Part shown: piece after piece, positions 1,730 through 64,000 of the stretch | Layout: every line of letters begins with the position of its first letter | Position numbering within the stretch: the stretch's first letter is position 1 | From: Lasiodiplodia sp. COLG20 | Lineage: Eukaryota > Ascomycota > Dothideomycetes > Botryosphaeriales > Botryosphaeriaceae | Length of the DNA stretch: 64,000 nucleotides | Reading direction: 5' to 3' | Assembly (NCBI GenBank): GCA_009801085.1 | Contig: VNWV01000007.1 | Location: forward strand, 1,240,001-1,304,000 | The notes under the pieces: generated by a model | Told to the model about the DNA's origin: nothing | Databases searched by the model: none | What the model saw: the letters and a program-made list of their open reading frames with translations, nothing else | Program-made: the position numbers and the translations under genes

Positions 1730-3711
1730 ATGCTCTCCCGCGCGCTCCGCGCCCGTCCTCAAGCAGTACGCCCGCGACTAGCGCAGATGGCGAACCACCT
1801 AAGCAACGGCGCCAACGGCGCGACAAGCAATTCGCAAACCTTCAAGAGCCTCCGCGACCTCCCCAAGTCCAACGTCTTCACTTCCAACCTGCCCTCCGAC
1901 CCGGCCTTCGAGACGCCCAAAGACTCGCACAATGCGCCGCGCGAGACCCTCGGTCCGCGCATGGTGAAAGGCGCGCTGTACACGTACGTGCGGCCGGAGC
2001 CGACGCTGGCGCCGGAGCTGCTCGCCGTCAGCGACGCGGCGATGCGGGACCTGGCGCTCGCCGACGGCGCGGAGAAGGAGGAAGAGTTCGTCCACGCTCT
2101 GGCGGGCAACGAGATAATCTCATGGGACGAGGACACCGGCGAAGGCGTGTACCCGTGGGCGCAATGCTACGGCGGGTTCCAGTTCGGGCAGTGGGCGGGC
2201 CAGCTGGGCGACGGCCGCGCCATCTCGCTGTTCGAGACGACCAATCCCACGACCGGCGTGCGGTACGAGCTCCAGCTCAAAGGCGCGGGTAAGACGCCCT
2301 ACTCGCGCTTCGCTGACGGCAAGGCGGTGCTGCGTTCGAGCATCCGCGAGTTCGTCGTCTCCGAGTACCTCAACGCTCTGAAGATCCCCACCACTCGCGC
2401 TCTGTCTCTCGTCCTTTGCCCTCGGGCGAAGGTCATGCGGGAGCGAATGGAACCCGGCGCCATCGTCGCCCGTTTCGCCCAGAGCTGGATCCGGCTGGGC
2501 ACCTTCGATCTGCTCCGCGCGCGTGGCGAGCGGAAGTTGCTGCGCCAGCTCTCCGAATACGTCGCCGAGCACGTCTACGGCGGCTGGGAGAACCTCCCCG
2601 CGAAGCTCCCGAAGCCCGACGAAGACCGCGTCACCGTCACGCGCGGCGTGGCCAAAGACGCCATCGAAGGCGGCGAAGGCAAGGAGGCCGAGAACCGCTT
2701 CGTGCGGCTGTACCGCGAGATCGCGCGGCGCAACGCGGTGACGGTGGCGGCGTGGCAGGCGTACGGCTTCATGAACGGCGTGCTGAACACGGACAACACG
2801 TCCATCCTCGGCCTGAGCATGGACTACGGGCCCTTCGCCTTCATGGACAACTTCGACCCCAGCTACACGCCCAACCACGACGACCACATGCTGCGCTACA
2901 GCTACCGCAACCAGCCCACCATCATCTGGTGGAACCTGGTGCGCCTGGGCGAGGCCCTGGGCGAGCTGCTCGGCGCCGGCGCCCGCTGCGACGAGGACGA
3001 GTTCGCCAACCAGGGCGTGCGCGAGAACTGGGCCAAGGAGCTGGTCGAGCGTGCAGAGCACGCTATCGACCAGACTGGTGAGGAGTACAAGGCCGTCTTC
3101 ATCGCCGAGTACAAGCGCCTGATGACTGCCCGCCTCGGCCTGCGCACTCAGAAGCAGAGCGATTTTGACGAGCTCTTCTCCGAATGGCTCGACCTTATGG
3201 AGGCCCACGAGCTCGACTTCAACCAGTCCTTCCGCCGCCTCTGCGACGTCAAGACTGCAGACCTCGAGACGGGCGAGCAGCGCGAGCAGCTCGCCTCCCG
3301 CTTCTTCCATGATGACGGTGTCGCTGGCGGCGAAGACACGGCACGCCAGCGTATCGGTAAGTGGCTGGAGAGTTGGCAGAAGCGTGTCCTTGAAGACTGG
3401 GGCGAGGGCAAGGACGAGGAGCGCAGCGCGGCTATGAAGAGCGTGAACCCGAAGGTAAGTTGATCACTCACGAACCCGAGCGCAAGCAACAATATCTAAC
3501 ATCATTTTAGTTCGTTCCCAAAGGCTGGGTCCTCGACGAGCTCATCGAGCGCGTAGAGCGCAAGCAAGAGCGTGATGTATTGAAGACCGTCATGAATATG
3601 TCATTGAACCCCTTCGAGGAGAAATGGGGACTGGACGAGAAGGATGAGGAGCGGTTCTGCGCCGATCCGCCCAAGTACAACAGGGCGATGCAGTGTAGCT
3701 GCAGCTCTTAA
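1730..3711 (+). CDS. FMP40: protein adenylyltransferase SelO, mitochondrial (Fmp40/YdiU family)
   Basis: Exons 1730..3454 and 3511..3711, separated by a 56-nt intron (GTAAGT, CTAAC, TAG), give 641 residues. SelO is a pseudokinase-fold enzyme that transfers AMP from ATP to protein hydroxyls in mitochondria and is linked to redox control. The family core is clear: LKGAGKTPYSR near residue 180 (ATP-binding lysine region) and GVLNTDNTSILG near 350 (metal-binding Asn/Asp). The first in-frame ATG is at 1730 and opens an Arg-rich, acid-free presequence (MLSRALRARPQAVRPRL), consistent with mitochondrial import. MANHLSN at 1787 is an alternative start. The protein ends CSCSS; vertebrate SelO ends CSUSS, so cysteine occupies the selenocysteine site. 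Confidence 0.93.
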
Positions 3712-57526: not shown

Positions 57527-57671
57527 GGCGCGGTGGCCTAATGGTAAGGCGGTAAGTCATCACAACATCATGCCTCAACATCAACATCATACTAATTGAA
57601 ATCTAGTTGCTTTCCGGCTTCCAAGCATTGGAACATGGCAAAGATTGTGGGTTCGAGTCCCATCCGCGTCG
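57527..57671 (+). tRNA. tRNA-Arg(CCG) interrupted by a canonical intron and a second, spliceosome-like insert
   Basis: GGCGCGG (57527-57533) pairs with CCGCGTC (57664-57670), discriminator G. The D arm GCCT-AATGGTA-AGGC ends at 57550; base 26 is G (57551). Then come 55 nt (57552-57606) that are not tRNA: GTAAGT start, TACTAAT near the 3' end, TAG end. The tRNA resumes with TTGCT (57607-57611), pairing with GGCAA (57637-57641). The loop is TT-CCG-G, a normal 18-nt intron (57618-57635) containing TTCCA/TGGAA, then T. The variable loop AGATT and T arm GTGGG-TTCGAGT-CCCAT follow. Box A (TGGCCTAATGG) and box B (GGTTCGAGTCC) are intact. Without the 55-nt insert every stem forms, so either the insert is removed from the RNA or the gene is disrupted. 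Confidence 0.8.
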
Positions 57672-57679
57672 AGCGTATC

Positions 57680-57686
57680 TTTTTTT
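57680..57686 (+). terminator. Pol III terminator of tRNA-Arg
   Basis: A run of seven T residues begins 9 nt after the discriminator base, the expected position for RNA polymerase III termination. Confidence 0.75.

Positions 57687-59401: not shown

Positions 59402-64000
<4,599 letters not shown>

Follow-up and report, generated by a model that had tools for sequence, protein, structure and literature searches.

Ascomycete rRNA genes contain spliceosomal introns, and a study reportedly dealt, by its title, with an mRNA intron in the 18S rDNA of deuteromycetes. Like the inserts described below, these introns are of the mRNA type and lie in a fungal structural RNA gene, but their hosts are transcribed by Pol I and belong to another gene class. 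The transcript of the fission-yeast U6 snRNA gene is not known to carry a second intron of the endonuclease type. According to the sections of PMC10484740 on this gene, it likewise harbors an mRNA-type intron within a Pol III transcript, which is spliced during maturation, but the host gene encodes an snRNA and not a tRNA. Among tRNA genes, those of Cyanidioschyzon merolae and of nucleomorphs may also present more than one intron per gene, D arm included (PMC4090602). In the passages of that article dealing with these introns, the ectopic introns of C. merolae are ascribed to the splicing endonuclease acting through bulge-helix-bulge motifs, the tRNA inserts of Guillardia theta measure 3–24 nt and are spliced in a way that is not understood, and a GT-AG signature goes unmentioned. 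The relevant part of a 2026 review presents tRNA splicing as spliceosome-independent, and no account of a nuclear tRNA gene with a spliceosomal intron turned up in the open-licence literature, a scope outside which most subscription papers fall. The locus analyzed here lies in a 64-kb window (the whole stretch of DNA that was analyzed, C67:1240001-1304000 in an assembly that totals 43.5 Mb and 88 contigs) and is read from its sequence, with a probability of about 0.83, as a working nuclear tRNA-Arg(CCG) gene (57527-57671) whose primary transcript would contain two introns of different classes (Table 1).

It was observed that the Rfam model RF00005 matched 57527-57671 on the forward strand with 38.7 bits, against a gathering score of 29, and that ARAGORN run on the whole window did not list this tRNA-Arg(CCG). 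The first-pass annotation had claimed that the cloverleaf forms only if two segments are removed, a standard 18-nt intron after position 37 and a 55-nt insert at 26/27 carrying GTAAGT, TACTAAT and TAG, and both segments were recovered as described. When they were cut out together, a cloverleaf with 21/21 stem pairs was obtained, which ARAGORN named tRNA-Arg(ccg). When the 55-mer alone was excised, one ARAGORN run reported an unnamed tRNA and another an Arg(ccg) whose intron measured 18 nt; excision of the 18-mer alone gave Thr, and the uncut precursor was called Gly. Among 441 cut combinations around the 55-mer, two reached all 21 stem pairs, both giving the same RNA and one of them being GT..AG, and a search free of any splice-site assumption likewise returned two cuts, one GT..AG; the cut at GT..AG is fixed by the cloverleaf alone. 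The TACTAAT motif had been placed 12 nt before the TAG; the motif is present, but its first letter lies 14 nt ahead of that TAG, with the presumed branch A standing 11 nt from the intron end. Box B and the T-run were intact, as previously proposed. Shuffling the mononucleotides of the 55-mer 500,000 times produced only one sequence that combined a GTRNGT start, an AG end and CTRAY 6–20 nt before the end, and the pattern GTAAGT N18-48 CTAAY N3-12 TAG was matched twice in the window versus 0.02 matches expected. The other match, at 3455-3510 (+), comprises 56 nt in the form GTAAGT..CTAAC..TAG, begins inside the end of a 616-aa ORF, and is probably an ordinary mRNA intron. The antisense frame that crosses the Arg(CCG) insert, used as a query against proteins, returned no match.

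Table 1. Features of the tRNA-Arg(CCG) locus (window coordinates) and the tRNA genes bearing putative mRNA-type introns (5′ ends, contig coordinates).
Feature	Position	Strand	Basis or description
tRNA-Arg(CCG) 5′ exon, positions 1-26 (acceptor 5′ strand, D arm, position 26)	57527..57551	+	Rfam match, cloverleaf
Putative 55-nt mRNA-type (U2-like) intron, tRNA position 26/27	57552..57606	+	GT..AG cut from cloverleaf; shuffles; window expectation
Putative 5′ splice site GTAAGT	57552..57557	+	Sequence
Branch-point motif TACTAAT; presumed branch A 57595, 11 nt from intron end	57590..57596	+	Sequence
Putative 3′ splice site TAG; first AG past the branch point	57604..57606	+	
Exon, positions 27-37, anticodon CCG at 57614-57616	57607..57617	+	ARAGORN on joined exons: tRNA-Arg(ccg)
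18-nt canonical 37/38 tRNA intron (endonuclease type, by position)	57618..57635	+	
3′ exon, positions 38-73, T arm and acceptor 3′ strand	57636..57671	+	Rfam match; joined exons
Pol III box B, GGTTCGAGTCC	57650..57660	+	Sequence
T-run, presumed Pol III terminator	57680..57686	+	Sequence
tRNA-Arg(CCG)	C67:1297527		Insert 26/27, GTAAGT...TACTAAT...TAG; 18-nt 37/38 intron
tRNA-Phe(GAA), six genes	C1:8349247, C34:2667319, C34:2701393, C56:488124, C56:519644 (minus), C67:2536205		Insert 30/31
tRNA-Arg(TCT)	C1:529424	minus	Insert 13/14, GTAAGT...CTAAC...TAG; 22-nt 37/38 intron
tRNA-Arg(TCT)	C34:2417067		Insert 11/12, GTATGT...CTGAC...TAG; without 37/38 intron
tRNA-Met	C4:387330		Insert 24/25, GTAAGC...CACTAAC...TAG

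A baseline for mRNA introns was available in the same window, in which an intron verified by protein alignment was found at 59612-59668 (57 nt, GTAAGT...TACTGAC...CAG) in a Prp4 kinase gene. The ORF of this gene, at 59624-61981 (−), shares 95% identity with a protein of Lasiodiplodia hormozganensis, and on this one protein the organism is placed in or near the genus Lasiodiplodia. In 301 kb of the genome, 71 intron-like segments were counted versus 48 in the reversed control, 3 of the 71 being tRNA inserts, and the excess was seen at lengths of 48–59 nt (44 versus 12 reversed) and at branch distances of 9–13 (41 versus 15), which, together with the Prp4 intron, bears out the view that 55 nt is a typical mRNA intron length here. 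The forward/reversed counts of 5′ hexamers in this sample were 11/2 for GTAAGT, 4/2 for GTATGT, 3/0 for GTGAGT, 7/3 for GTACGT, 2/0 for GTAGGT, 5/0 for GTTAGT, 2/0 for GTTAGC and 2/0 for GTAAGC. Since all five GTTAGT segments were inserts of tRNA-Phe genes, as was one of the two GTTAGC segments, the 301-kb sample offered no mRNA precedent for GTTAGT. The gene adjoining tRNA-Arg(CCG), at 59402-61981 (−), encodes a Prp4-type kinase, a spliceosome-associated kinase, and this neighborhood is probably a coincidence.

The need for this tRNA was approached through codon usage and through the search for other Arg genes. In a set of ten long ORFs from the window, not all of them necessarily genes, CGG accounted for 84 of the 536 Arg codons. 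With up to 3 mismatches, the 5′ exon (57527-57551) was found in the genome only at its own place. A second tRNA-Arg(CCG), which the first-pass annotation had considered possible, was not found among the 9 and 5 matches of two genome patterns; these 14 matches comprised 13 loci checked by ARAGORN and Rfam and the target once again, and only the target and one other locus, the latter Gln(TTG) by a home-made scan, were scored by Rfam. With a D-arm pattern aimed at Arg genes, 28 places were picked up, none of which the home-made scan named as a further Arg(CCG). Patterns for tRNA-Arg(TCG) gave 7 and 6 matches, two places being shared, and no such gene was found among them; the six places of the second pattern were submitted to Rfam, with none over the cut-off, although the home-made scan identified one of them as a Glu(CTC) gene, the other five went through the home-made scan only, and both patterns miss genes with a longer 37/38 intron or a different box B. 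Elsewhere in the genome, a tRNA-Glu(CTC) gene (L071/L066, C45:467067) presented a 28-nt 37/38 intron by scan, L071 lying below the Rfam gathering score, and the 56.5-kb contig C52 (L031, L032, L034) contained several long-intron tRNA genes, identified by scan as His, Ala and Gly.

The proposal that an mRNA-type intron resides in a Pol III-type tRNA gene alongside the normal 37/38 intron was supported by the finding that at least 10 nuclear tRNA genes, of four tRNA species, carry such an insert, namely one Arg(CCG), six Phe(GAA), two Arg(TCT) and one initiator-type Met; this number is a lower bound because the genome search patterns looked upstream of box B. The Met gene on contig C4 displays an A1-U72 pair and an ATCGAAA T loop, which are initiator features. 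In all ten genes the insert measured 52–60 nt, started with GTNNGY (GT..AG, with G at +5) and ended with YAG, and CTRAY lay 11 nt from the insert end in nine and 12 nt in one, with no other AG between. The 5′ hexamer matched GTRNGT in three inserts (GTAAGT in two, GTATGT in one) and departed from it as GTTAGT in five, GTTAGC in one and GTAAGC in one. The inserts occupied 11/12, 13/14, 24/25, 26/27 or 30/31 and never 37/38, a place at which Arg(CCG), the six Phe genes and one Arg(TCT) also carry a canonical intron, from which the inserts differ in both site and mRNA splice signals. Upon GT..AG excision, 21/21 stem pairs formed in 10/10 genes, and ARAGORN named the products Arg ccg, Phe gaa (six), Arg tct (two) and Met cat. 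Pairing alone fixed the cut only in Arg(CCG); in Phe, Arg(TCT) and Met further cuts also reached 21 pairs, and the cut was set at GT..AG because it carries the splice signals. T-runs were found 3′ of the tRNAs.

The Arg(TCT) gene on C1 came from a general genome pattern whose 8 matches included two tRNA genes, as judged by eye (Arg(CCG) and this one), the C34 Arg(TCT) gave only a partial Rfam match before its insert was recognized, and the Met gene was found by splice-then-scan of about 311 kb of this genome. A mobile or introner-like origin had also been suggested for the Arg(CCG) insert, and this received no support. A 191-base genome search, with common words skipped, detected no near-identical copy of the 55-nt segment besides the gene itself, and the inner parts of the inserts showed no clear similarity between tRNA species, the lowest of 15 pairwise comparisons being reached by 17 of 500 shuffles.

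tRNA-Arg(CCG) is single-copy, and the conservation of an insert was measured in the tRNA-Phe family. These genes were first noticed in a home-made tRNA scan as three tRNA-like loci with other tRNAs nearby, in which GTTAGT...CACTAAC...CAG interrupted the anticodon stem and was followed by an ACTGAAG loop. Searching the genome with the Phe 5′ half and up to 3 mismatches retrieved six places, and all six contained the insert; the joined exons constitute tRNA-Phe(GAA), and each gene also presents a 30–35-nt intron at 37/38. The exons were 99–100% identical and the 37/38 introns 92% identical, while the middles of the inserts reached about 47%, the spacers from branch to end 48%, and the upstream flanks had little similarity. 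Within the inserts, CACTAAC was 100% identical and GTTAG and AG were invariant. Exons that stay constant amid such diverged surroundings indicate either gene conversion or selection that acts on the mature tRNA, and the conserved islands of the inserts are those that a spliceosome reads. It was also noticed that GTTAGT is exactly complementary to ACTAAC in five of the six Phe inserts (L103-L107), and that the equivalent pairing comprises 5/6 pairs in the sixth (L102), in Arg(CCG) and in one Arg(TCT) (L108), and 4/6 in the other Arg(TCT) (L044) and, by reading of the sequence, in Met. Part of the GTTAGT/ACTAAC conservation in Phe could thus reflect a hairpin. Such a hairpin in L103-L107 could bring the 5′ splice site and the branch-point motif together.

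These Phe genes are poorly recognized by standard tools. Their box B, GTTCGATCCA, was not matched by the general genome pattern, which returned 0/6 of them, the Rfam tRNA model reported 0/6 at its gathering score, and ARAGORN called the uncut precursors Ala(agc), Arg(gcg) or Thr(agt) despite near-identical exons. Insert-free Phe(GAA) genes, searched with a pattern containing the matching box, did not appear among 14 matches, which corresponded to two known Phe genes, serving as positive controls, and 12 places that did not look like tRNAs on inspection; this search missed the four remaining Phe genes, whose 37/38 introns exceed the pattern gap. An exact scan with the Phe 5′ half followed by GT matched four loci in viral contigs and 18 loci in prokaryote contigs, with no fungal DNA among them, judging by titles and collection. 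The Phe trailers (L102-L107) showed two conserved hairpins before the T-run, about 50 nt past each 3′ end, in which 11 pairs were kept in 66/66 cells and compensatory changes occurred in three pairs. None of 500 shuffles reached their covariation score, 30 of the 500 reached the count of pairs in which both sides had changed, and no Rfam family matched these trailers above the cut-off.

The extent of the class was delimited by several scans. Relaxed GT-branch-AG segments from sampled DNA of this genome, 4,432 in all and each with a T-loop-like motif downstream, were put through a strict cloverleaf scan that considered only cuts in the 32 nt nearest the tRNA 5′ end; a full cloverleaf was obtained in ten locus rows, which correspond to the ten genes (some loci bear duplicate labels: L104 is L025, L106 is L026 and L107 is L020). 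A scan without splice-site assumption, insensitive in that only 5 intact tRNAs passed among 75 T arms, identical T arms were collapsed and Phe was incompletely listed, pointed to 11 places needing one cut of 38–95 nt. Eight of these had one cut, and no more than one, that carried the complete mRNA-type signature, two were Gly(GCC) with long 37/38 introns, and one was a spurious pairing. By ARAGORN splice-then-scan, 13 of 231 segments gave a tRNA across the join (the ten genes, three seen twice), and displaced cuts still gave 10 to 12 tRNAs at the same loci, so that ARAGORN does not fix the register and strict pairing was used instead. Among the 23 other intron-bearing tRNA-like matches, the mRNA-type signature was absent from the anticodon-arm segment in all 17 considered, six near-copies being left out, and a loose signature over the whole gene was seen in two of the 23 (L028, L032), in neither of which the cut completes the cloverleaf.

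The inserts are best read as U2-type spliceosomal introns in Pol III tRNA genes, and other explanations have to be weighed against this one. The first-pass annotation had left it between unusual splicing and silencing, and in the second case a recent mRNA-type insertion would have broken tRNA-Arg(CCG), turning it into a silenced pseudogene that makes no tRNA. The single copy of this gene is compatible with such a loss, and eukaryotic tRNA genes with short D- or T-arm inserts are supposed to be pseudogenes in the corresponding passage of PMC4090602. However, the 21 stem pairs, box B and the T-run are all intact in Arg(CCG), the same anatomy recurs in nine sister genes, including 6/6 Phe genes whose exons are near-identical despite diverged inserts and flanks and whose splice signals are conserved, no second tRNA-Arg(CCG) was found by the patterns tried, and CGG codons are in use at the frequency given above. 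Silencing is thus disfavored for Phe and, by analogy, for Arg(CCG), for which we regard it as improbable, and splicing is the favored branch of that alternative.

It could also be supposed that the insert is an ectopic tRNA intron cut by the tRNA endonuclease at a bulge-helix-bulge, as in Cyanidioschyzon, its likeness to splice sites having arisen by chance. Introns at unusual positions are known in a red alga and in nucleomorphs, as covered in parts of PMC4090602 and PMC3978253, the 5′ site of the Phe inserts departs from the mRNA consensus, and the GTTAGT-ACTAAC pairing is complete in five Phe inserts and nearly so (5/6 pairs) in L102, Arg(CCG) and L108; but it falls to 4/6 in L044 and Met, no fold is predicted for the Arg(CCG) insert, and GT, CTRAY and YAG stand in register in 10/10 inserts. 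A strict bulge-helix-bulge was found at 0/10 sites and a relaxed one at 3/10, all Phe, but either form also recovered 0/8 canonical introns, so that this test weighs neither way, and a loose test, with shifts allowed and without a null, gave a 4-pair central helix at 8/9 sites. An endonuclease-cut ectopic intron is rated as very improbable. Introns occur in lncRNAs too, and the insert could then belong to an overlapping Pol II transcript, lncRNA or UTR, the tRNA match being incidental. Against this, the cut completes the tRNA exactly at ten loci and at five tRNA positions, and T-runs lie downstream of the tRNAs, which leaves an incidental match with hardly any likelihood.

Under the spliceosomal reading, Pol III would transcribe tRNA-Arg(CCG) from its internal boxes, and a U2 spliceosome would read GTAAGT, TACTAAT and TAG and take out 57552-57606, whose removal would rebuild the junction between the D arm and the anticodon arm. 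The tRNA endonuclease and ligase would then remove 57618-57635, as its 37/38 position suggests. The order of events would be more constrained in the Phe genes, because their insert splits the anticodon stem and because, in PMC4090602, the tRNA endonuclease is considered to find the splice sites by their distance from the tRNA body, so that the spliceosome should act first and the endonuclease after. The presumed first exons of the ten genes are very short, 11–30 nt plus a leader.

An mRNA-type intron in a non-coding Pol III gene has a precedent in U6, but a spliceosome-dependent tRNA supply would be new. tRNA and mRNA splicing are treated as separate machineries, and a single tRNA precursor would go through both if these genes are functional. 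Questions that could then be tested are how U1 is recruited to an uncapped Pol III transcript whose first exon measures 11–30 nt, in which order splicing and endonuclease cleavage occur, whether cells treated with splicing inhibitors run short of phenylalanyl-tRNA, and by which route mRNA-type introns enter structural RNA genes. Annotation is also affected, considering that Rfam and ARAGORN miss or misname these genes and that the tRNA tables of such genomes may lack tRNA-Phe. Since at least ten tRNA genes, including every Phe gene found, carry mRNA-type introns, this fungus probably needs the mRNA-splicing machine for some of its tRNAs. For the lineage, it appears somewhat likely that the spliceosome is obligatory for tRNA-Phe and probably for Arg(CCG), some Arg(TCT) and the initiator Met, in which case translation capacity would hang on splicing capacity, and a spliceosome-spliced class of tRNA introns, located at several sites of the 5′ half, would exist beside the endonuclease class.
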